NCBI RefSeq assembly: GCF_028882255.1 | Contig: NZ_JARBUY010000001.1 | Location: forward strand, 433,975-497,974 | DNA length: 64,000 bases | Direction of reading: 5' to 3' | Source of the DNA: Maribacter polysaccharolyticus | GTDB lineage: Bacteria > Bacteroidota > Bacteroidia > Flavobacteriales > Flavobacteriaceae | Shown: positions 3,426 through 56,709 of the stretch, in pieces | Position numbering within the stretch: the stretch's first letter is position 1 | How the letters are laid out: every line of letters begins with the position of its first letter | Notes under the pieces: model-generated | Told to the model about the DNA's origin: nothing | The model's input: the letters and a program-made list of their open reading frames with translations, nothing else | Databases searched by the model: none | Program-made: the position numbers and the translations under genes

Positions 3426-6206
3426 TTAATTCTTCAATTCTTTTTCCGGTAAATTAACGGTTGGCTCCAGAGGATTTCCGTCTGCATCTATTTCTATGAT
3501 ATCATCGAAGCCCAAGGCATCCAATTTGGTTGCTATTTTAGCCCTATCCCCGACCATGAACCAATTGACCTCATTGGGCTTTACCACCTTTTGGCTCACT
3601 TTCTTTATGTCTTCCAGGGAAAGGTTACGTACATTTTTATCATAGGTCTGGTAATAATCATCAGGGAGTCCGTAACGCACCAAATTGGCAACCGAACTAT
3701 TCACGGATCCATTGGTCTCCCACTGTCCGGGTAGTTTAAGCACCTGATTGGTCTTTACCTTATCCAATTCCTCTTGGGTAGCTGGCTTAGTGGTCACAAA
3801 CTCCGATATTTCCTTACGCAGCTCAGTGACCGATTCCGCGGATTTATCGGTTTGCACCGGAGCATACACGATAAAGGGTCGCTCTTGCTTGGATCCCAAC
3901 ACCAATCCGCCTGCGCCATAGGCCCAATGCTTATCTTCCCTAAGATTCATATTGATCCTCGACGTAAAATCCCCTCCTAAAATACTTACCATTTGTTGAA
4001 GGGCTATTTCAGAAACATCCCCATACTTTTCGGTCAAATGCCCTGCGATGATCACCGACTGTTGTGATTCGGGCCTATTCATTAAATAGAGGGTATTCTT
4101 GGTGTTCGTTTTCGGTTCTGTAAATGTGATTTCCGGAACATTCCCCTTTTTCCATTTTCCCAAGGTCTTTTGTAATTTGGCTTTGAGTTCATCCATTTCC
4201 ACATCCCCTGTAACAATGATCGTCGCATTGTTGGGCTTCATCCAAGAGTCATAAAAACCGATAATATCATCCCTTGTCAGTTTTTCGACCGTAGCCTCGT
4301 AACCCGTTCCGGTATACGGATTGCTATAAGGATGGTTCTCCCCATACAACAACTTGTTCATAACCCGTAAAGCCATTGAAAAAGGTTGTGATTTTTCATT
4401 CTTTATCGTGTTGATCTGCTCGGTTTTAAGACGTTGGAATTCTTTTTCAGGAAAGGCAGGGTTAAGGATCACCTCGGAAAATAAGTCGATGCTTGCATCC
4501 AAACTGGGTTTTAGGGTATTCATATAAACCGTTGAATTATCCTGATCTGAAAATGTGCTTAGGCTTGCACCCAACAACTGCAACTGTTCATTTATCTCCA
4601 ACGAATTCAATTCCTTGGTTCCTTCATCCAACAGATTCATCGCCAATTCCGCAGTTCCCGGACTGGCCAGGTTATCGGTTTTATAACCTGCATCGACCAT
4701 AAGTCGCATTACGACCGTGGGAACACCTTTGCGTTTGGCCAATACGATATTGAGTCCATTAGCAAGTTCTTCCCTTTCCAATTCGGGAAATTCAGCACTC
4801 TTGGGCGTACCTAAGTCCGGCAGTTTTGAACGGTCAATCGATGATGCTACCGTAGTATATTCTTGAAAAGGCTCACAAACCAAGGTATGTTTGCCCTGAG
4901 TCAACCATTTTTTTGCGGTTTCCTTGATATCCTGGACTGTTGCTTCCTCTACATATTTCAGTACTTTTTTATAGTACCCTGCATCATCGAAATAGGTCTC
5001 GTTAGATGCTAAAATATCGGAAACTCCCCCAAAACCACCGATCCGCTCCAACCCTTTGATGAAACCGGAGAAATAAGCGGCTTTTACCCGCTTTAACTCC
5101 TTTTCGGTCGGTCCTTCATTGATCAATCTATCAATTTCGGCCTGCATTAGCATTCGCACCTTTTCGGGATCTTCCCCCGGCTTTACATTTGCCCAACTAA
5201 TAAAATTACTGGCAATTTCACTGGAAGCTTGGAACGAAACCACGGAACTTGCGATTTGATCTTCATAAACCAATTTCTTGTATAATCTGGAATTTTTACC
5301 ACTTGAAAGTATGGAAGAAATCAAATCAAAATGGATATCCTCCTTATGACCGAATTGAGGCGTGTTCCAGGCAAAGAGTATCCTGGTTTCCGGAACCCGA
5401 TCCTGATATACCTGATAAGTATCCCCATTGTGCACGGGAATGTTCACCTCTTGTCTTTCAATGGTAGGACCGGCCGGGATATCCCCGAAATAATCCAAAA
5501 CCTTTTTATGCACTTCTTGGGGGTTTATGTCGCCGGCTATGGCAACAACCGCATTGGCAGCCCCATAATACGATTTAAACCATTCATGTACATCCTCTAG
5601 GGAAGCGGCATTCAAATCTTCCATCTCCCCTATCACGGTCCATGAATACGGATGGCCTTTGGGGTACATGGCCTTGGTCAAATAATTCCACTGCTTACCA
5701 TAGGGTTGATTCTCTCCCTGGCGCTTTTCGTTCTGAACCACTCCCCGTTGTTCATCCAAAAGTTCTTGATCCACGGCCCCCAACAAATGCCCCATACGAT
5801 CGGATTCCAAAAACAATACCTGATCTAAGGCCGATACGGGAACATTTTGAAAGTAATTGGTTCGATCGGAATTTGTGGTACCGTTCAAATCCGTTCCCCC
5901 GATCCGTTCAAGTGCTTGAAAATAGTCATCGTTGAAATTTTCACTGCCATTGAACATCAAATGTTCAAATAAATGTGCAAAACCACTTTTCCCGGGCTTT
6001 TCATTCTTAGACCCTACGTGGTACCAAACATTCACGGCAACGATCGGTGCCTTGTGATCTTCATGAACCAGTAAGGTGAGTCCGTTCGGCAGTACGAATT
6101 TTTCATAGGGGATTTCGATATTATCTGCTTTAAACTCAAAATTTTGGGCCATCTGTACTTGGACGGCACCTAAAAGACACCATAAAACAAGGAATAATTT
6201 TTTCAT
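3426..6206 (-). CDS. M16 family zinc metallopeptidase with two tandem M16 units
   Basis: This 926-residue secreted protein starts with a signal peptide (MKKLFLVLWCLLGAVQVQMAQ). The inverted zinc motif HLFEH is at residues 78-82, with the third ligand Glu probably at 160 (VVQNEK). This identifies an active N-terminal M16 unit (about 35-450). The C-terminal half (about 480-900) is a second M16-like unit without HXXEH but with the LREDKHWAYG segment, which resembles the R/Y substrate-clamp motif of M16 peptidases. Such two-unit proteins form a clamshell that degrades peptides in the periplasm. The gene is monocistronic and converges on the E1 gene. Confidence 0.9.
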   Translation of the reverse strand: MKKLFLVLWCLLGAVQVQMAQNFEFKADNIEIPYEKFVLPNGLTLLVHEDHKAPIVAVNVWYHVGSKNEKPGKSGFAHLFEHLMFNGSENFNDDYFQALERIGGTDLNGTTNSDRTNYFQNVPVSALDQVLFLESDRMGHLLGAVDQELLDEQRGVVQNEKRQGENQPYGKQWNYLTKAMYPKGHPYSWTVIGEMEDLNAASLEDVHEWFKSYYGAANAVVAIAGDINPQEVHKKVLDYFGDIPAGPTIERQEVNIPVHNGDTYQVYQDRVPETRILFAWNTPQFGHKEDIHFDLISSILSSGKNSRLYKKLVYEDQIASSVVSFQASSEIASNFISWANVKPGEDPEKVRMLMQAEIDRLINEGPTEKELKRVKAAYFSGFIKGLERIGGFGGVSDILASNETYFDDAGYYKKVLKYVEEATVQDIKETAKKWLTQGKHTLVCEPFQEYTTVASSIDRSKLPDLGTPKSAEFPELEREELANGLNIVLAKRKGVPTVVMRLMVDAGYKTDNLASPGTAELAMNLLDEGTKELNSLEINEQLQLLGASLSTFSDQDNSTVYMNTLKPSLDASIDLFSEVILNPAFPEKEFQRLKTEQINTIKNEKSQPFSMALRVMNKLLYGENHPYSNPYTGTGYEATVEKLTRDDIIGFYDSWMKPNNATIIVTGDVEMDELKAKLQKTLGKWKKGNVPEITFTEPKTNTKNTLYLMNRPESQQSVIIAGHLTEKYGDVSEIALQQMVSILGGDFTSRINMNLREDKHWAYGAGGLVLGSKQERPFIVYAPVQTDKSAESVTELRKEISEFVTTKPATQEELDKVKTNQVLKLPGQWETNGSVNSSVANLVRYGLPDDYYQTYDKNVRNLSLEDIKKVSQKVVKPNEVNWFMVGDRAKIATKLDALGFDDIIEIDADGNPLEPTVNLPEKELKN

Positions 6207-6717: not shown

Positions 6718-7719
6718 TCAGAGGATTTTTACCAAAAGTTCTTTCAACAAATCGGATGGCGGTGTGGCATTGGCCCCTACTCCTTTTCCCTTAAGATCCA
6801 TTTCGCGCAAATGCGAAATGATACTACTTACCTTTTTCATGGGATAGTTCTTTGCCGCAACTTGGAATTCCCCAACGAAATATGGGTTTATCCTTAATGC
6901 ACTGGCTACATTTTTAGGAGAATGGTCGTTTAACCCATGGTATTGCAACAATTGGGAAAAAAAGCTATGCAACAAGGTAATCGTAAGGACAAATGGATTG
7001 TCTTTCGGGTTTTGGGCAAAGTACGTGATAATCTTGGACGCTTTGAGTACATCGCGTTCACCGATGGCCTTCTTCAACTCAAAATTATTGTAATCTTTAC
7101 TGATCCCTATATGCTCTTCTATGTTCTCCGAAGTGATCTGGCTTTCTTTTGGCAAAATAAAGGTAAGTTTATCCAACTCTTTACCGATCCTGCTCAAATC
7201 GGTCCCTAAATTTTCTACAAGTAGTATGGCCGCTTTATGGGAAATGGAGTACCCTTTGCCTTGGAGAACCTTTCGGATCCAATCGGAAACCTGGTTCTCA
7301 TACAGTTTTTTACTCTCGAACAGTACCCCCGATTTCTGAACGGATTTATACAGTTTCTTCCGTTTGTCCAATTTCTTATACTTATAGCATATCACCAAAA
7401 CCGTGGTAGGCTGTGGGTTTTCCGCATAATCGACCAATTGCTCAATCGTTCTTGAAAGATCTTGGGCCTCTTTTACGATAACCACCTGGCGTTCGGCCAT
7501 CATGGGATATCGCTTGGCATTGGAAACGATCTCATCGATACTGGCCTCCTTACCATAGAGTACCATCTGATTAAAGCCCCGCTCTTCCTCCGTCAGTACA
7601 TTCTTCTCGATATATTGCGATAACATATCGATAAAATAAGGCTCTTCCCCATATAGGAAATACAACGGACGTATATTTCCTTTTCGAATATCGGCAACGA
7701 TTTGTTTTACTTCATCCAT
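6718..7719 (-). CDS. holA: DNA polymerase III subunit delta
   Basis: 333 residues, the usual length for HolA, the clamp-loader subunit that opens the beta sliding clamp. The N-terminal AAA+-like domain starts with VKQIVADIRKGNIRPLYFLYGEEPYFID, and the body has the QVVIVKEAQDL and LVDYAENPQPTTVLVI segments seen in delta subunits. It lacks Walker motifs, as expected for delta. It is divergent from the HsdR_N-like gene, with only 26 bp between the two starts. Confidence 0.88.
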   Translation of the reverse strand: MDEVKQIVADIRKGNIRPLYFLYGEEPYFIDMLSQYIEKNVLTEEERGFNQMVLYGKEASIDEIVSNAKRYPMMAERQVVIVKEAQDLSRTIEQLVDYAENPQPTTVLVICYKYKKLDKRKKLYKSVQKSGVLFESKKLYENQVSDWIRKVLQGKGYSISHKAAILLVENLGTDLSRIGKELDKLTFILPKESQITSENIEEHIGISKDYNNFELKKAIGERDVLKASKIITYFAQNPKDNPFVLTITLLHSFFSQLLQYHGLNDHSPKNVASALRINPYFVGEFQVAAKNYPMKKVSSIISHLREMDLKGKGVGANATPPSDLLKELLVKIL

Positions 7720-19159: not shown

Positions 19160-19173
19160 TCATAAGTTCAGGA

Positions 19174-19238
19174 GACAAGCGCAAGGGACAAGTGCTAGGG
19201 ACAAGTGCAAGGGACAAGTGCAAGAGACAAGTTCAAGG
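19174..19238 (+). repeat. 13-bp tandem minisatellite, five units
   Basis: Five head-to-tail copies of a 13-mer close to GACAAGTGCAAGG at 19174, 19187, 19200, 19213 and 19226, with one or two changes per unit. Degenerate partial copies continue on both sides. It lies between the convergent genes ending at 19159 and 19289 and does not code. Confidence 0.85.
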
Positions 19239-41480: not shown

Positions 41481-42200
41481 ATGAAAATGGAGAAAACAAA
41501 TCTGAAAAAAGCATTGGACAAGGTTAAATCGAAGCATTTTGAATCGGTCGATATCCTGGTAGAAGTACAAAAAATCCTGGAAGAAAGTGATAAGCGGCAA
41601 GACAGGGTTGAACGAAACCTATTATCGGGTATGTCCGGGAATTCCAACGCATTCCATTTTGATAAATTGAAAACGGGGAACATTTACCATATCGAACACA
41701 TTCGAAAGATCTGTATCGACTATCGCCTGCGTTTTTTGGATACGAAATACTTTAAGGGTGATATTCCGCAAGAGGCAATCTCAAAAATAAAGCAACTCGA
41801 AAAATTTCATGCAACCGAACTTTCCGGATTCAAAATAATCGCTCCTTCCAAACTTTTTAAATTAAAGGACAAGGATGACCCCTTGTTGTTCGCCCCTATA
41901 GGCAACGATTATTATTATTTTATCCATAAATGGGGAAACGACCTCCATCCTTTCCGCAAAGTATTCATGTGGCCGTACAAAAACGTGGTAAACCTAGTAC
42001 TTACGGTATTGGTATTGAGTTTTTTGACCACCTTGATCACCCCTATTGAACTTTTCACAAAAACCACTTCGGGTTATGAATTTTGGCTATTGTTCTTCTT
42101 TATGTTCAAATGGGCCCTTGCCGTAGTTTTGTTCTATGGTTTTGCCAAGGGAAAAAACTTCAACCACGCGATTTGGAAAAGCAGGTTTCTTAACTCTTAA
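41481..42200 (+). CDS. Membrane protein of unknown function with two C-terminal helices
   Basis: 239 residues. The N-terminal 150 residues are charged and probably cytoplasmic (TNLKKALDKVKSKHFESVDI; NIYHIEHIRKICIDYRLRFLD; HKWGNDLHPFRK). Two hydrophobic helices follow (about 163-183, NLVLTVLVLSFLTTLI, and 200-220, WLLFFFMFKWALAVVLFYGF). I know no function for this type. A TTTG...TATTTTCA promoter-like pair precedes the gene. It is convergent with the next lipoprotein gene. Confidence 0.65.
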   Translation: MKMEKTNLKKALDKVKSKHFESVDILVEVQKILEESDKRQDRVERNLLSGMSGNSNAFHFDKLKTGNIYHIEHIRKICIDYRLRFLDTKYFKGDIPQEAISKIKQLEKFHATELSGFKIIAPSKLFKLKDKDDPLLFAPIGNDYYYFIHKWGNDLHPFRKVFMWPYKNVVNLVLTVLVLSFLTTLITPIELFTKTTSGYEFWLLFFFMFKWALAVVLFYGFAKGKNFNHAIWKSRFLNS

Positions 42201-50098: not shown

Positions 50099-50110
50099 TC
50101 CGTACCCTTA

Positions 50111-51640
50111 ATACATGTCGCATTTTTCATCCTTATTTCCGCACTGCTATTTTTGTTGGGATGGAGTTCTTGCCGGAAGGATTTTGAATATGCCTCCAAC
50201 CCCGGAAATTTGACGTTTTCAAAGACCACCGTATTTCTTGATAACGTTTTTTCCACTATATCACATAGCCCCTACACCTTAAATGTGTACACCCCAACCG
50301 AGAAGATATTGAAATACCCTTTATATAATTAAATGAATGGGATGATAGTGGCTATTGATTGAATGTCGATGGTGTCGCCGGGAAAGAATCCACGAATCTA
50401 CCCCTACTTGGTCATGATAGCCTTTGCATTATTATTGAAACCACTTACGACCTAACCAACAATACGGATGATACATTCCTTAATATATACCGATGCAATC
50501 ACTTTTGGTAGGGATACCGCAATCCAAGAAGTGCGATTGGTAACCTTGGTCAAAGATGCCCTCTTCCTTTATCCAAGGACTGCAGCAGACGGCTCCGACC
50601 AAACCCTCAGTTTGGAAATGGGTTTTGGAGATGAAGCTATATATATATAAGGAAGGATATTATTTACAGCAGGACGAATTAATGAAAAAACCCTATGTGG
50701 TTTATGGTTATGCGATAGTAGCTGAAAACCAAACCCTGACCATTGAAGCTGGCTGCCGTGTTTCTTTCCATGAAGATTCCGGTTTGCATGTAGCCGAAGG
50801 GGCTTCTCTGTACCTTAGTGGCAGATTAAGCCAAGACCAAGATCCGTTCGAAAATACGGTGATTTTCGAGGGAGACCGACTAGAACCCAGGTATGGGAAC
50901 AGCAGGTCAATGGAACGGTATTTGGATCACTAAAGGCAGCAACGCCAATCTTATGGAGCAGCTCCCTTAAAGAATGCCATCTTGGGAATAATGGTGGAAG
51001 GCCACAAGACACCGCAACCCCCTACCCTAACGATCAGGAATTCGCAAATACACAATTGCACAGGTACCTTTGGGCCAAAAATACCTATGTCATCCACGAA
51101 AATACCATTTTAGACAGTTCCGGTCTGAATTCCTTATTCTGTAATCAAAGAGGGATTTACGACTTCACCCATAATACCATGACCAATTCTTGTTCCCATA
51201 GCATAAGGTTGGGAACCACTATCTGTTTGAGCAATTACAGTGGAACGGATTCGGGATACACGATAACGGCCCAATTCAAGAATTGTATCATTGATGGTAT
51301 TGCCTGCGTGAAATCTCTTTACAGACTGTTGGGATGCACACCTTGTTTTTTTCTTTCGACCATTCCCTTATAAAATTTGAGGATAATACAGGTCAATTTG
51401 CAAATGACCCTTTGTGCGAATTTGGCGACACTACGCCATACAATCAGGTATTTACACATCAATATACTGATTTTAAACTTGTTAAGAAAGGTGTGTGTTT
51501 GATCAAGGAAGAATCGGAAGCCATAAATAAGGTCGATTTAAACCATGCCCTCAACATCCCCTTTGATATTCTAGGTACCGATAGAACGGAAAATCCGGAC
51601 ATTGGAGCCCACGAATTCACCCCAAGAATGCAATATGTCG
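50111..51640 (+). pseudogene. Decayed lipoprotein of a Bacteroidota beta-helix-like family, multiple frameshifts
   Basis: A continuous protein can be read only by changing frame many times. From 50117: SSCRKDFEYASNPGNLTFSK. After an in-frame TGA at 50356-50358: LNVDGVAGKESTNLPLL. From about 50480: YTDAITFGRDT and LVTLVKDALFLYP. From about 50650: PYVVYGYAIV, LTIEAGCRVSFHEDSGLHVA and VIFEGDRLEP. From about 50905: GQWNGIWITKGSN. From about 50965: KNAILGIMVEG and PTLTIRNSQIHN. From about 51065: LWAKNTYVIHENT and NCIIDG. From 51334: FDILGTDRTENPDIGAHEF. This order matches a known family of long Bacteroidota lipoproteins with a beta-helix-like middle and a lipobox (WSSC). About eight frameshifts and one stop are needed. 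Confidence 0.88.
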
Positions 51641-51782
51641 TTAAAACTCAGGTAAAAGGAAGTATTTTCCTTCAATTTCAATTATTTCTTTATCGTATAA
51701 AGACAAACCTCATTTTTTATAAGGTTTTCCTTGGCCCTAACTTCGACTACAATCCTAACTTTGCCCTTAAACAGCTAAATAC

Positions 51783-52532
51783 ATGGAATTTAACTACTCC
51801 ATAATCGATTCTGACGCCACTTCAAATTTGCAATTGCAGCATTTTTTGGAGGAATATGGTGATTTTTCGTGTGTTTCTTTAGCTAAAAACAGTACCGACG
51901 GTTTAAATTCAATTTTGAAATATTCCCCCGATGTCGTTTTCGTAAACTTGAATGAAAATTCCCGTGAATATTTCCATATGGTCATGGAGCTCCACCAATA
52001 CATCAAAAAATTACCGGTATTCATCGGGATTTCCAAAACCAAGGAACACGCTTATGATGCCATCAAAAACGGTTTTTTCGATTATTGGTTAAAACCGTAC
52101 AACGAATTTGATATTAGAAAATCCTTGTTACGCCTTAAAAAGCAACTGCCGGAACCGGTTGCAGCCCCTGCCCTTTCCCAAGCCCCGACTATTTGCTTAA
52201 AGTCGTACCGGGATTTCCAATACTTAAATACCGATGACATACTTTACCTACAGGCAGATAACAATACCACGGAATTCGTAATGAAAGACGGCAGTGTTGT
52301 CAACGCCTTTAAGACGCTAAAGACGTTCGAGAACCAATTACCATCGAATTTTATCCGCATCCATCAAAGCTATATCATCAATACGGTTTTCATTTCGGGC
52401 ATCAGCTATGGAAAATCGTTATGCACCCTAAAACTTCGCAACCTACAATTGCCATTTTCAAAATCCTATAAATCGAATATTGATGAGGTAAAAGAGCGTT
52501 TATCAAAAACGGTTATTCCTACATCTAATTAA
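51783..52532 (+). CDS. LytTR-type response regulator with a degenerate receiver
   Basis: 249 residues. The N-terminal receiver-like domain (about 5-115) keeps the acidic pair (D9, D11) and the Lys of WLKPYN, but the phosphoacceptor position is N55 (VVFVNLN instead of VFLDIxMP), so normal phosphorylation is not expected. Residues about 145-245 form a LytTR DNA-binding domain (ICLKSYRDFQYLNTDDILYLQADNN; FIRIHQSYIIN). The start overlaps the remnant frame of the upstream pseudogene. No sensor kinase of the LytS type lies beside it. The repeat-protein gene follows. Confidence 0.88.
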   Translation: MEFNYSIIDSDATSNLQLQHFLEEYGDFSCVSLAKNSTDGLNSILKYSPDVVFVNLNENSREYFHMVMELHQYIKKLPVFIGISKTKEHAYDAIKNGFFDYWLKPYNEFDIRKSLLRLKKQLPEPVAAPALSQAPTICLKSYRDFQYLNTDDILYLQADNNTTEFVMKDGSVVNAFKTLKTFENQLPSNFIRIHQSYIINTVFISGISYGKSLCTLKLRNLQLPFSKSYKSNIDEVKERLSKTVIPTSN

Positions 52533-52599: not shown

Positions 52600-52619
52600 C
52601 CCCATTTTCCTCAATGGGG
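52600..52619. repeat. Second hairpin upstream of the repeat-protein gene
   Basis: CCCCATT (52600-52606), loop TTCCTC, AATGGGG (52613-52619), followed by TTATTAGTTTTA, which contains a TAGTTTTA resembling the -7 consensus. The position suits a terminator for the LytTR gene or a regulatory site for the next gene. Confidence 0.55.
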
Positions 52620-52673
52620 CTTATTAGTTTTACAACATAATAAAACAAACCCCTAACACAAAATTTTATGATT

Positions 52674-52976
52674 ATGAAAAGAGCACTTAGTATTTTGGCA
52701 GTATTGGCATTAATGATCGGATCGACAGCCATGAGTACCGAAAATGAAATTCAAGAACAAAACAACATAACCTGTGATGACTGTGCCCACGATAAGGACA
52801 GAAGGGAAGCCGAAGTGGCCCAATGCGATGACTGTGCCCATGATAAGGACAGAAGGGAAGCCGAAGTGGCCCAATGTGATGACTGTGCCCATGATAAGGA
52901 CAGAAGGGAAGCCGAAGTGGCCCAATGCGATGACTGCGCCCATGATAAGGACAGAAGGGAAGCTGAAGTGGCCTAA
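52674..52976 (+). CDS. Small secreted protein of four identical 17-residue repeats
   Basis: 100 residues from the ATG at 52674 (an ATG two codons earlier is also possible). A signal peptide (MKRALSILAVLALMIGSTAMS) precedes a short linker and four head-to-tail copies of CDDCAHDKDRREAEVAQ; the last copy ends EVA because its Gln codon CAA is TAA. Each unit has CxxC, one His, four Asp and a dibasic RR. The four 51-bp units differ only at synonymous positions. I do not recognise the protein. Metal binding by CxxC/His/Asp, or release of peptides at RR, are the two ideas that fit. A strong terminator follows. Confidence 0.75.
   Translation: MKRALSILAVLALMIGSTAMSTENEIQEQNNITCDDCAHDKDRREAEVAQCDDCAHDKDRREAEVAQCDDCAHDKDRREAEVAQCDDCAHDKDRREAEVA
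52773..52976 (+). repeat. 51-bp coding tandem repeat, four units
   Basis: Units begin at 52773, 52824, 52875 and 52926. Changes between units fall at the third bases of the two Cys codons, the His codon and one Ala codon, and the final CAA is TAA in unit four. Confidence 0.95.
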
Positions 52977-53036
52977 CCAATGTTCACTCATTGATTCCTA
53001 AGATTAAAGGGATAAGAAAGAGGATCCCTCAAAAAC

Positions 53037-53073
53037 AAAAAGGTCTTAATCTTTGTAGGATTAAGACCTTTTT
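53037..53073. terminator. Rho-independent terminator after the repeat-protein gene
   Basis: AAAAAGGTCTTAATC, loop TTTGTAG, GATTAAGACCTTTTT: a perfect 15-bp stem ending in a T-run. It separates the repeat gene from the kinase gene, whose ATG is 19 bp further. Confidence 0.88.
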
Positions 53074-53091
53074 GTTTACATTAGTACCACC

Positions 53092-55197
53092 ATGCTTAGA
53101 ACAAACCGACCTACAATTTTCCACCTCACCAAAGGGTTATTACTGCCTCTATGGTGTATTCTTTTTTCTTCTTGTAGTCAACCCGATAACCCACCGGCCA
53201 CTCCGGAAAACGTTGCCAACGACAGTATTTTAAGTTGGATATCCCAAAGTCGAAATCCGGTGACTTCCATAACAGAGAAAAAACAATTGCTCCAAAAGGC
53301 ATTTTTGGCCGCCGATAAGAGTCCTGTGGATAGTACCCGACTCAGGTATTATTCCAGACTTTCCTTGGCTTTTTTAGAGCTCAATGATTCAACTGAATTC
53401 CGAACCGTCAATAAAAAAACATTGTCCCTGGCCAAAAAAACCAATGATACCATAAACGAAGCTTATGCCCATTGGGACCTTGCTGATTTTTTTGAAACCA
53501 ATATAGCAATGGACAGTGCGTTTTACCATTACCATCAGGCCCAAAAGAAGTTTGAAGCTGTTGGGGACACCTATTATTCGGGGCGCTTGTTCTACAATAT
53601 GGCGCTAATCCAAACCGATGTCAAGGATTATACCGGCGCGGAGATCAATGCCTTTAATTCCATCGAACGCCTAAAGCCTTTGGACGAATACCTAAGACTG
53701 CATCGTTGCTATAATTTATTGGGCTCCATTTCCAACGAATTGAAGGAATATGAACGGTCTTTGGAATACTTTAATCTGGCCAATGAGTATCTCTCCAAAG
53801 TAAAAGATCAAGAGGTACGGAATAATTTTTTACCTAAACTTCAAAACAATATTGGCAATACCTATAAAAATCAAGGTAATTATGAAGACGCCAAAAGATA
53901 TTACCAAAAAGCGGTATTCAACAATGATAGTTTAAGATTTAAAGCACCTTCCTCATACGCCTTATTCCTTAATAATTTTGCATTAAGTCGATTAAAATTG
54001 GGGGATACCTTAGGTGTTTTAAAGGATTTGGAAACAGCTAGGGAAATAAGAAAAAACCAAAAGGATATTGAAGGCCTATCACTCAGTGAATATACCTTTG
54101 CCGAATACTATCTAACCCAAAATGACACCGTAAATGCTCTGGAACGTGCAAAAATGGCCAAGCAATATGCCGAGGAGGGCTCAAACAACAAACGGTTATT
54201 GGCCTCATTGGGATTATTGGCCCGGATCGACCCCAAAAACTCCCTAAACCATACGCAACACTATATTGCCTTGACCGACAGCCTGCTTCAGATAGAACGG
54301 AAGGAACGCGATAAATTTACCCGTATACGTTTTGAAACCGACGAGTTTATTGCCGAAAACGAATCCCTTGCCCGAAAAAAACAAATTTGGACAGGATTAT
54401 CCATAGGTATTTTCCTACTTGGGGTGTCCGTCTACGTTATCTTCTACCAACGGTCCAAAAACCAAGCTTTGCGATTTCAACAACAACAACAAACCAGTAA
54501 CCAAGAGATTTTTGATTTGATGTTGTCCCAAAAACAGAAAATTGCCGAAACCAAAAAAGCGGAGCAAAAACGCATTTCAGAAGAATTGCACGATGGGGTC
54601 CTTGGGAAAATGTTGGGGGCCAGAATGGTATTGACCGGATTGAATAAGATCAACTCGGAGGAAGCCATATCGGAAAGGGCAAAGGCCATATCCGCCTTAA
54701 AGGATGTGGAAGGGGAAGTACGAGCCATATCACACGAATTAAGCCATGCAGCCTACCATAACATCAACAATTTCATAAATTCGATCAAAGATCTTTTAAA
54801 AAACATATGCTCCGCGAACGACCTCAATTATACCTTTGATTATGAAGAATCTCAGGATTGGGACAATATGAAAGGGGAAATAAAAATCAACTTATACCGT
54901 ATGGTACAGGAGATTATGCAAAATGCCGTAAAACACGCAAATTGTAAGAATATTTTGGTTAGTTTTGTACGTAGAAATGAAATGTTATTGGTTGCCATAA
55001 CAGATGACGGAAAGGGATTTGCCTCTAAACCGGGCAAAAAGGGTATCGGTATGAGAAATATCGGCTCAAGGATAGAAAAATTAGGTGGCACTTGGAACAT
55101 AGACAGTACTTTGAATAAAGGAACAACGATTACTTTAAATATCCCCCTTGAAACTCAAGAAGCCGTTCATGAAATGAATCATGAAAATTTGAATTAA
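53092..55197 (+). CDS. TPR sensor histidine kinase (HisKA_3 type), lipoprotein-like N-terminus
   Basis: 701 residues. An N-terminal signal ends in LFSSC (Cys28). TPR repeats fill about 75-400 (AHWDLADFFETNIAMDSAFYHYHQAQ; NNIGNTYKNQGNYEDAKRYYQKA). A membrane helix follows at about 430-450, then a coiled coil and the HisKA_3 dimerisation domain with phospho-His H500 (ISEELHDGVLGKM). The HATPase_c domain shows QNAVKHANC (N box), DDGKGF (G1) and GIGMRNIGSR (G2). The TPR part is periplasmic and probably senses a protein or peptide. The response regulator gene follows after 35 bp. Confidence 0.92.
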   Translation: MLRTNRPTIFHLTKGLLLPLWCILFSSCSQPDNPPATPENVANDSILSWISQSRNPVTSITEKKQLLQKAFLAADKSPVDSTRLRYYSRLSLAFLELNDSTEFRTVNKKTLSLAKKTNDTINEAYAHWDLADFFETNIAMDSAFYHYHQAQKKFEAVGDTYYSGRLFYNMALIQTDVKDYTGAEINAFNSIERLKPLDEYLRLHRCYNLLGSISNELKEYERSLEYFNLANEYLSKVKDQEVRNNFLPKLQNNIGNTYKNQGNYEDAKRYYQKAVFNNDSLRFKAPSSYALFLNNFALSRLKLGDTLGVLKDLETAREIRKNQKDIEGLSLSEYTFAEYYLTQNDTVNALERAKMAKQYAEEGSNNKRLLASLGLLARIDPKNSLNHTQHYIALTDSLLQIERKERDKFTRIRFETDEFIAENESLARKKQIWTGLSIGIFLLGVSVYVIFYQRSKNQALRFQQQQQTSNQEIFDLMLSQKQKIAETKKAEQKRISEELHDGVLGKMLGARMVLTGLNKINSEEAISERAKAISALKDVEGEVRAISHELSHAAYHNINNFINSIKDLLKNICSANDLNYTFDYEESQDWDNMKGEIKINLYRMVQEIMQNAVKHANCKNILVSFVRRNEMLLVAITDDGKGFASKPGKKGIGMRNIGSRIEKLGGTWNIDSTLNKGTTITLNIPLETQEAVHEMNHENLN

Positions 55198-55232: not shown

Positions 55233-55904
55233 ATGAAAACTATTCGACTTTTATCTGTTGATGACCATGCCATGACGGCAATGGGCTATAAATACATATT
55301 GGAAGGTTCAGAGTTTGATGACTTTCAAGTTAAGGTAGATACCGTAAATACTTTTGAAGGGGCGATTGAAAAAATCGATTTTTCCGCCCGATCACTCCCC
55401 TATGACATTCTCTTATTGGACATATCCCTTTTTCCATCCCATTCCGGGGATACCCGAAGCGGCGAGGACCTGGGCATCTATGCCCGAAAAAAAGTACCTA
55501 CTTCCAAGGTCGTCTTTATGTCATCGTTTAGCGATAGTTACCGAATCAACAGCATTTTTAAAAGCGTAGATCCGGATGGATATATGGTAAAATCGGAAAT
55601 AGACGAACAGTCGCTATGCGCCATGGTACGCACCGTTCTGGAGCGACCACCCTACTATACCGCCAGTGCCCTATCGGCGATACGAAAAAAAATGGCCAAT
55701 GATTATGACCTGGTAGACGATACCGACAAAAAGATCCTACATTATATCTCCATAGGAACCCGTACTAAAGATATCGGTCCGTTGATTTCCGTTGCACCGA
55801 CCACTGTGGAAGCCCGAAAAAGACAACTGAAACAACTTTTTGGTATAGAACAAGGCAATGATATTGAGTTAATTGAGGAAGCCAGAAACCGTGGATTCAT
55901 TTAA
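55233..55904 (+). CDS. NarL/LuxR-type response regulator
   Basis: 223 residues. The receiver domain (about 4-135) has the acidic pair D10/D11, phosphoacceptor D63 (LLLDISL) and the late Lys of GYMVKSE. An insertion after the phosphorylation site (FPSHSGDTRSGEDLG) lengthens the loop. The C-terminal HTH (about 155-215, DKKILHYISIGTRTKDIG, then VAPTTVEARKRQLKQLFG) is of the LuxR fold, though divergent from the classic pattern. It is the cognate partner of the upstream kinase by position. No second terminator separates the two genes. Confidence 0.88.
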   Translation: MKTIRLLSVDDHAMTAMGYKYILEGSEFDDFQVKVDTVNTFEGAIEKIDFSARSLPYDILLLDISLFPSHSGDTRSGEDLGIYARKKVPTSKVVFMSSFSDSYRINSIFKSVDPDGYMVKSEIDEQSLCAMVRTVLERPPYYTASALSAIRKKMANDYDLVDDTDKKILHYISIGTRTKDIGPLISVAPTTVEARKRQLKQLFGIEQGNDIELIEEARNRGFI

Positions 55905-56076: not shown

Positions 56077-56709
56077 ATGTCTTTAAAATCGGAAAATTTC
56101 GGAAATGACCCGCATTGGTCAACCCAAAAAGCTTCATTCAATGGGCTTTCAGGTCTTATCAACAATCTTGAAAAAAATTTTTTCTCTCAAATTTCAGTAC
56201 GCCACGATTCCCCGATAAACGGGAAGATCAACTTGATCATTGAAATGGATTGTAACTTAAATTTGATCGATATGATCACCCAATCCTACAACGGGGCCTG
56301 GGGAACATTCAACCAAATTGAATATTCCCTTGCGGAGGATTTGGATACACTGGATCAATGCAATGATGCCGTGTTCGATGTGGATGAGTTCATCATCAAC
56401 CTAAAGGATACCAGTATAGTCATCGATAAATTATACGACCAAAGTATCCCCGATCAATTGCCCAGTATATTTAGCAATCTGGAAAAACACTTCCTTGCAT
56501 TGACGAAAAGAAATATTGAGGTCCCCTATGAAATTTTCGTAGCTGTTTTCGAGGAAGAACTTTTTACCTTAGCCCCCGTTTCCACGAACACCACACACAA
56601 TTATTCCACGTATTGGGGCCTTTATTTTGAATCCGAAAAAGATGCCGTTATCTACGACCTGGAAAAATCAACTATACTTAGGGAGAATCTTTACATGATC
56701 AACAAATAA
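56077..56709 (+). CDS. Soluble protein of unknown function
   Basis: 210 residues, no signal peptide and no membrane helix. The sequence is acidic and has mixed helices and strands (NGLSGLINNLEKNFFSQISV; LPSIFSNLEKHFLALTKRN; THNYSTYWGLYFESEKDAVIYDLE). I recognise no family. The frame is uninterrupted, base composition is like its neighbours and codon use looks ordinary, so it is probably a real gene. It follows the two-component genes by about 170 bp, with two hairpins between. Confidence 0.6.
   Translation: MSLKSENFGNDPHWSTQKASFNGLSGLINNLEKNFFSQISVRHDSPINGKINLIIEMDCNLNLIDMITQSYNGAWGTFNQIEYSLAEDLDTLDQCNDAVFDVDEFIINLKDTSIVIDKLYDQSIPDQLPSIFSNLEKHFLALTKRNIEVPYEIFVAVFEEELFTLAPVSTNTTHNYSTYWGLYFESEKDAVIYDLEKSTILRENLYMINK

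Follow-up and report, generated by a model that had tools for sequence, protein, structure and literature searches.

The systems described so far that come closest to the locus reported here are two kinds of peptide-signaling system and one secretion-related pathway. Systems of the agr and com type combine a polytopic sensor with a dedicated processing and export protein (AgrB or a C39 ABC transporter). In the RRNPPA systems of Firmicutes (Phr, NprX, PapR, and AimP), a short secreted-type precursor is encoded beside a cytoplasmic tetratricopeptide repeat (TPR) receptor, and some propeptides contain as many as six copies of the mature peptide, according to the accessible part of PMC9765709. In Bacteroidota, the two-component pathway PorXY (type IX secretion) is influenced by the exported protein PorA, as described in the accessible part of PMC7712824. 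Here, we analyzed a 64,000-nucleotide stretch of the Maribacter polysaccharolyticus genome (contig NZ_JARBUY010000001.1, positions 433,975 to 497,974; hereafter, the window), which contains a small gene for a protein ending in four identical units, located between the genes of a LytTR regulator and a TPR histidine kinase. Judged by its sequence and its neighbors, it is an even call whether this gene encodes a secreted, multicopy precursor of a peptide ligand for the adjacent TPR-kinase; a signal precursor is in any case more probable than an isolated metal-binding protein.

The open reading frame (ORF) carries a hydrophobic signal region and a short linker, followed by four copies of CDDCAHDKDRREAEVAQ. 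The unit can be written in the protein as CDDCAHDKDRREAEVA(Q), and in the last unit the Gln codon CAA is replaced by the stop codon TAA. Tandem Repeats Finder reports the array with a period of 51, 3.9 copies, a match of 96%, and a score of 368. Four nucleotides differ among the units, all of them at third codon positions and all synonymous. The original prediction, made from the sequence alone, had described this arrangement and had assigned the protein to the secreted type; rereading of the window shows the description to be accurate, and the signal region preceding the units agrees with predicted secretion. An alternative in-frame ATG is present at 52668, six bases upstream of the start at 52674, which is favored because homologues open with M[KR]R or M[KR]K. 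Scans of the window protein against Pfam and NCBIfam gave nothing above cut-off, and the best hit of a PDB sequence search had an E value of only 0.6. Its predicted structure has no confident fold (predicted local distance difference test [pLDDT] score of 42), which fits a precursor but would equally fit any disordered protein. A mobile origin was rejected, as the gene had no plasmid match and no confirmed viral match.

Homologues (E ≤ 0.01) were found in 8 of the 12 genomes of the window's genus group, including Maribacter luteus, M. aquimaris, and M. polysiphoniae, with about 2 to 8 units each, repeating every 15 to 21 residues; other Flavobacteriaceae genera have relatives with a single unit. 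A search of 397 Flavobacteriaceae genomes with a profile built on the Maribacter proteins gave matches in 14. The 17 loci fetched first all have the peptide gene flanked by the same LytTR regulator gene on one side and the same TPR histidine kinase gene on the other. A LuxR-type regulator gene comes next in 15 of them, while the sequence of the other two (L035 and L037) stops at the kinase. Searching with the LytTR gene (E ≤ 1e-60) gave matches in 86 of the 397 genomes, and the gene was also found in 10 of the 12 genomes of the genus group; the two genus-group genomes added in this way (L141 and L142) encode a single-unit lipoprotein of 45 aa. With 13 low-scoring genomes among the 86 left unfetched, 80 loci were read around the LytTR gene, the window included. 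A family peptide directly follows LytTR in 73 of these loci, and a TPR histidine kinase follows the peptide in 72 of the 73 (the sequence of L092 ends too early). The LuxR-type gene is also present in 67 of the 73; five of the remaining six loci end at a contig or stretch edge. A different small lipoprotein follows LytTR in four more distant loci outside the 73 (L129, L131, L132, and L134), and no peptide follows it in L130, L133, and L135, the last of which lies at a contig end. In L130 and L133, the LytTR relatives are 46 to 48% identical and have neither a TPR-kinase match nor a peptide, which speaks for the proposed ligand function. Across the order, LytTR orthologues (E ≤ 1e-55) were detected in 13 of 296 genomes, all of the same family, at a threshold that may hide distant forms. 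The conserved position between a LytTR regulator and a TPR-kinase speaks more for signaling than for metal chemistry.

The family itself is unnamed in the databases searched, in keeping with the initial remark that no known family came to mind. No match above cut-off appeared in the Pfam and NCBIfam tables (33 and 53 members, respectively). The commonest weak NCBIfam match, NF050142 (PG1828 family lipoprotein), involves the signal region only (residues 1 to 31). Of four members scanned singly, two score 23.4 and 17.5 bits and the other two are unmatched; both scores are below half of the curated cut-off of 50 bits, and the C-terminal motif of the peptide lies outside the match. By its sequence features, the peptide is thus a member of a predicted small secreted or lipoprotein-type family without a Pfam or NCBIfam name. 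The usual form is a single lipoprotein of about 50 aa ending in ATDGDxxxxDxRD; it comprises a signal region, in most cases a lipobox-like Cys, an ET-ALYE-type linker, and a highly variable, mostly acidic C terminus. The most common unit core is ATDGDxxxxDxR[DEG], the Maribacter form being CDDCxHDxDRRE. For 66 loci, retained from the 80 after removal of 14 that were incomplete, distant, or missing a gene, GSGGx replaces the Arg motif at the C-terminal end in seven. Beyond residue 20, the peptide is acidic, with a mean net charge of −10 (arrays taken whole) and a negative charge in 97% of the 66; the core unit has a net charge of −3.1, and the sensor is near neutral (+1.2; standard deviation, 7.6).

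Tandem arrays of the C-terminal unit are present in 20 of the 66 loci, and array presence shows at least nine changes on a quick 66-locus tree on which gains and losses were not separated. The units measure 12 to 34 aa across arrays. Locus L076 has seven TDGDD-type units, L085 has six, L113 has about six units of 28 aa, and the longest intact array, in L115, has about 14 units of 34 aa in a protein of 507 aa. In L113 and L115, the repeated unit takes in some linker-like sequence. The signal peptide is never part of the amplified unit, which counts in favor of a ligand precursor. The unit differs by species (CDDCAHDKDRREAEVAQ in the window, CDDCAHDKDRREPKVAQ in M. luteus, and CDDCSHDKDRREAKDVVY in M. 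aquimaris), and units inside any one genus array are identical or almost identical. For an association of arrays with CxxC or with lipobox loss, the 66-locus tree held too few independent pairs.

Between-unit changes were pooled over the 20 arrays detected by script and comprise 175 silent versus 55 replacing variable sites, 33 of the latter from the frameshifted array of L126. The 19 arrays without a frameshift show 163 silent versus 22 replacing changes, compared with about 140 replacing changes expected from codon composition. Only silent changes are present in 13 of the 20 arrays, two of which (L035 and L127) have under two full copies. M. polysiphoniae (L031, after position 7038) offers a small natural control, in which two decayed units extend beyond the stop codon. 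The first of these differs by five silent and five replacing changes, a second stop among the latter, while its translated units have two replacing changes at most. In their DNA, the arrays of the window and of M. luteus have different fixed bases, each in all four units, indicating that the arrays were homogenized or re-amplified after the two species split and then drifted silently. Purifying selection on the translated unit, together with concerted evolution, is well supported by these data. The original prediction had proposed either selection on the repeat peptide or recent conversion; the selection is borne out, and conversion or re-amplification has taken place as well; absence from relatives and a pattern of non-synonymous drift between units were looked for, and neither was found. 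Whatever the function, these arrays offer a clear natural example of a short repeated peptide that purifying selection maintains while its copies evolve in concert. In L126 (1697 to 2569), a long TDGEDSKTDNRGDAIAF array shifts frame in its fourth unit and the repeats carry on, reflecting decay or an assembly error.

In the favored explanation, the precursor would be exported, with the C-terminal unit as the ligand or ligand-bearing segment. Once cleaved, the unit would be recognized outside the cytoplasm by the TPR domain of the neighboring histidine kinase, and this kinase would then phosphorylate the LuxR-type regulator encoded next to it. The LytTR regulator probably controls the peptide gene through the conserved 21-nt direct repeats, repetition of the unit would supply more ligand per translated precursor, and the circuit may include autoinduction and a role between cells. 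A Cys near the kinase N terminus is found in 61 of 66 orthologues, and the TPR domain is predicted to lie outside the inner membrane. The phospho-His of the kinase and the acceptor Asp of the second regulator, which we take to be LuxR-type from its tail, are both conserved in 66 of 66 orthologues, so that phosphotransfer from the one to the other is expected. In the window's LytTR receiver, the phospho-acceptor position is occupied by Asn, and only 1 of 66 orthologues has Asp there; having lost this residue, the regulator probably acts without ordinary phosphorylation. An AlphaFold model of the sensor is a TPR solenoid of fair quality (blocks of 60 to 91) only at residues ~11 to 240 of 396. 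In a fold search with this model, the 50 PDB matches listed are TPR proteins such as LGN and kinesin light chain, many of them in complexes with peptides or partners, which would be compatible with peptide sensing.

The pairing is also seen outside this locus. A profile of single-unit members was searched in 40 genomes having the system and matched in all 40, with further off-locus matches among those listed. From the better of the listed matches, 20 off-locus ones were picked by hand; one (L153) is a false positive, leaving 19. Nine of the 20 lie directly upstream of other TPR-kinases, which are 21 to 26% identical to the window kinase and are each followed by an ORF of 221 to 222 aa. TPR and HATPase domains were found by Pfam in all three of these kinases scanned, and a receiver, below cut-off, in the one regulator scanned. 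The nine pairs argue that the association of peptide and TPR-kinase recurs beyond the first locus. Taken further, the locus could represent a Flavobacteriaceae-wide pheromone system with LytTR control, repeatedly amplified precursors, periplasmic sensing by the TPR-kinase, and some paralogous pairs. This wider proposal is tentative, and we place it somewhat short of an even chance. If true, Gram-negative bacteria would have an equivalent of Phr/Rap and agr assembled from other components, and a large bacterial group, marine species among them, would use an unrecognized peptide language, directly testable since the peptide and receptor genes adjoin. The window's own genome has a further profile match (L152, 5172 to 5318; 48 aa), located beside an ORF without a Pfam match.

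In function, the nearest analogy is the RRNPPA propeptide. As in those systems, the predicted precursor is encoded next to a TPR protein (a TPR-kinase in 72 of 80 loci) and may carry several copies (arrays in 20 of 66). It differs in that the TPR domain would be the extracytoplasmic part of a Bacteroidota histidine kinase, with no re-import implied, and in its units of 12 to 34 aa, which reach about 14 copies. We do not consider it a member of RRNPPA, as the RRNPPA receptor is cytoplasmic, whereas the predicted TPR domain here precedes a transmembrane segment and a histidine kinase; no RRNPPA receptor was named among the 50 matches listed in the fold search, the sole homology test. Like agr, sil, com, and blp, the peptide gene adjoins a histidine kinase and a LytTR regulator, and all three occur together with the LuxR-type gene in the 67 loci given above. 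Unlike agr and com, the sensor is a TPR protein, the LytTR receiver has no acceptor Asp, a second regulator follows the kinase, and no processing exporter was recognized among the eight neighbors scanned. Among the open-license articles listed for Bacteroidota, Flavobacteria, or Maribacter, no title or abstract opening described peptide signaling by way of a TPR-kinase, nor did the accessible part of PMC8895600, an absence that is not proof.

Several observations weigh against a cleaved ligand sensed by the TPR-kinase. The sensor is the fastest-changing of the four regions compared (mean identity of 0.39 versus 0.55 for the kinase, 0.61 for LuxR-type, and 0.64 for LytTR); this divergence counts in favor of the ligand reading but could also reflect relaxed constraint. 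The structure model of the sensor is of low confidence overall (mean pLDDT of 59.4). Co-evolution of peptide and sensor is weak and unspecific. In partial Mantel tests, their correlation is 0.13 (P = 0.016) after removal of kinase distance alone, at which stage LytTR (0.13; P = 0.019) and LuxR (0.10; P = 0.03) distances perform equally, and 0.09 (P = 0.07) once kinase, LytTR, and LuxR distances are removed together. No processing or export protein or protease was found by Pfam among the eight neighbors, the remainder of the genome lying outside this search. L097 has the peptide and the kinase with no LuxR-type match, and 10 of the 19 true off-locus relatives have no adjoining TPR-kinase. Finally, the lipobox-like Cys is kept in 51 of 66 homologues, which, together with the lipoproteins of L141 and L142, suggests that many of these proteins may be membrane tethered instead of diffusible.

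This last point leads to the alternative that survives best, in which a tethered periplasmic or surface lipoprotein modulates the TPR-kinase of the same cell as a co-sensor, inhibitor, or envelope-stress probe, and in which repeats would increase avidity or provide more binding sites. Besides the conserved Cys, it draws on the off-locus relatives. In L155, L167, L170, and L171, LYE-type small lipoproteins follow a PorX-like regulator (REC and PglZ in the two scanned) and precede an ORF of 217 to 225 aa that looks membrane bound by eye. Three others (L152, L154, and L156) precede further ORFs of membrane-bound appearance, also judged by eye, and L160, L163, and L165 have no such neighbor. Tethered sensing is plausible in such settings, and for the four PorX-like cases a link to type IX secretion control is possible. 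A precedent exists in PorA, a surface protein that feeds PorXY signaling in Porphyromonas gingivalis (accessible part of PMC7712824), although PorA is a C-terminal domain (CTD) protein with a FimH-like domain and not a ~50-aa peptide or a repeat. However, the window gene and the seven other genus arrays have no lipobox, lipobox-less forms recur in other genera, and about 14 copies in L115 are harder to explain for a stoichiometric subunit. We regard tethering as unlikely overall, though deserving of serious consideration.

Table 1. Features of the peptide locus in the window
Feature	Position	Strand	Description
LytTR DNA-binding regulator	51783..52532	+	Receiver domain below Pfam cut-off
Three direct repeats, type ATnCTnnnAnAA	52537..52590	+	21-nt period just past the LytTR stop; third has one mismatch
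Promoter-like element TAGTTTTA	52625..52632	+	About 49 nt ahead of the ATG
Peptide-precursor gene (predicted)	52674..52976	+	100 aa: signal region ~1-20, linker 21-33, four C-terminal units 34-100
Tandem array	52773..52973	+	3.94 units of 51 bp/17 aa; 4 synonymous, 0 non-synonymous differences
Hairpin	53033..53077	+	19-bp stem, 7-nt loop; in the gap separating the peptide gene from the kinase gene; probable intrinsic terminator
Sensor kinase	53092..55197	+	Lipoprotein-like N terminus, TPR domain at about residues 31-424, one transmembrane segment near 433, HisKA_3-type region (His500), HATPase
Response regulator	55233..55904	+	Pfam receiver 24.2 bits, under the 30.2 cut-off

The regulatory DNA around the peptide gene (Table 1) counts in favor of the ligand reading and also bears on a second alternative, that the peptide is an output of the LytTR/kinase circuit, such as a secreted effector, a matrix component, or a bacteriocin-like product, and that synteny reflects shared regulation. 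In the 73 aligned upstream regions, three direct repeats of type AATnCTcnCAaAA with a 21-nt period directly follow the LytTR stop. A strict repeat expression matched 68 of the 73 (shuffle mean, 13.8), and a repeat pair spaced by 20 to 23 nt was found in 19 (shuffle mean, 0.07; maximum, 2); the expression was designed after the alignment was viewed, and the shuffle control preserves base composition only. Elsewhere in the 64 kb, the pattern has one further exact match (41553 to 41585). The promoter-like element was compared with the Bacteroidota −7 consensus, and TAnnTT[TA][GA] occurs 43 to 55 nt ahead of the start codon in 50 of the 73 loci (shuffle mean, 4.2; maximum, 11). In 44 of 72 loci, the peptide gene is succeeded by a hairpin with a T-rich tail (shuffle mean, 0.1 to 0.3; maximum, 2); the one in the window was not listed by a simple hairpin scan. 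Published LytTR operators consist of 9-bp repeats with 12-bp spacers in sil, where direct repeats of 21-nt period also precede the peptide gene (accessible part of PMC2766830), or of repeats of 9 to 11 with spacers of 11 to 13 (accessible part of PMC4847170). Given this shared period, the repeats here are a putative LytTR operator. Together, these elements suggest that the peptide gene has its own promoter and terminator and is under the control of the upstream LytTR regulator, with LytTR binding being putative. Upstream inverted repeats (52600 to 52619 and an ACTAGTA palindrome) were rejected as a conserved signal, since they do not recur in the other loci listed.

With such a promoter architecture, the upstream regulator may govern the peptide gene, and rapid change in sequence and copy number also suits secreted effectors. 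Yet, a family peptide is also encoded directly ahead of divergent, paralogous TPR-kinases elsewhere, and no immunity-like or exporter gene was recognized among the eight neighbors scanned. We consider an output role improbable.

A third alternative follows from the CxxC, His, and Asp residues by which the repeats had initially been characterized. The protein would be a secreted metal-binding or redox-active one in which these residues bind zinc or another metal and each copy adds capacity. The residues are indeed present in the window. They do not define the family, since CxxC occurs in 18 of the 66 loci (as ACDGC or CDDC) and is missing from 48, where Thr and Asp mostly take the Cys positions, and we did not retain a metal or CxxC protein as the primary identity. 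The cysteine pair is better seen as a recurrent variant, in which Thr and Asp of the ATDGD core are both Cys (L088 has ATDGC). That both positions are replaced jointly in several lineages, with seven changes of the trait on the 66-locus tree of kinase, LytTR, and LuxR, favors a metal site, and the Asp-rich motif could bind Ca2+. Conversely, the metal ligands are not conserved across the family, sensors from CxxC loci and from other loci are alike in mean cysteine content (0.78 versus 0.83), and the window protein matched no metal-protein family above cut-off in Pfam or NCBIfam. We accordingly find a metal-binding identity very improbable. A chance or artifactual ORF in a DNA repeat, although several frames stay open across the 51-bp unit, is already contradicted by the conservation of start, frame, and protein across the family and by the strong depletion of replacing changes, leaving it next to no probability.

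Further features were observed around the locus and in its relatives. Just upstream of the LytTR gene, the gene at 50099 to 51782 of the window is broken up over several reading frames, as a pseudogene or through a sequence error; its counterpart is a single open frame of 511 to 547 codons in 10 of the 11 relatives examined. L034 has a second LytTR gene (4943 to 5659; 58 to 59% identical, without a Pfam receiver match) just upstream of the usual one, and no signal-peptide ORF was seen between the two. Downstream of the LuxR-type gene, 15 of the first 17 loci encode a 210-aa protein without a Pfam match (56077 to 56709 in the window). The other two loci end before its place, and M. luteus has two copies. 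A separate short tandem repeat of 13/26 bp is located at 19164 to 19238 of the window.
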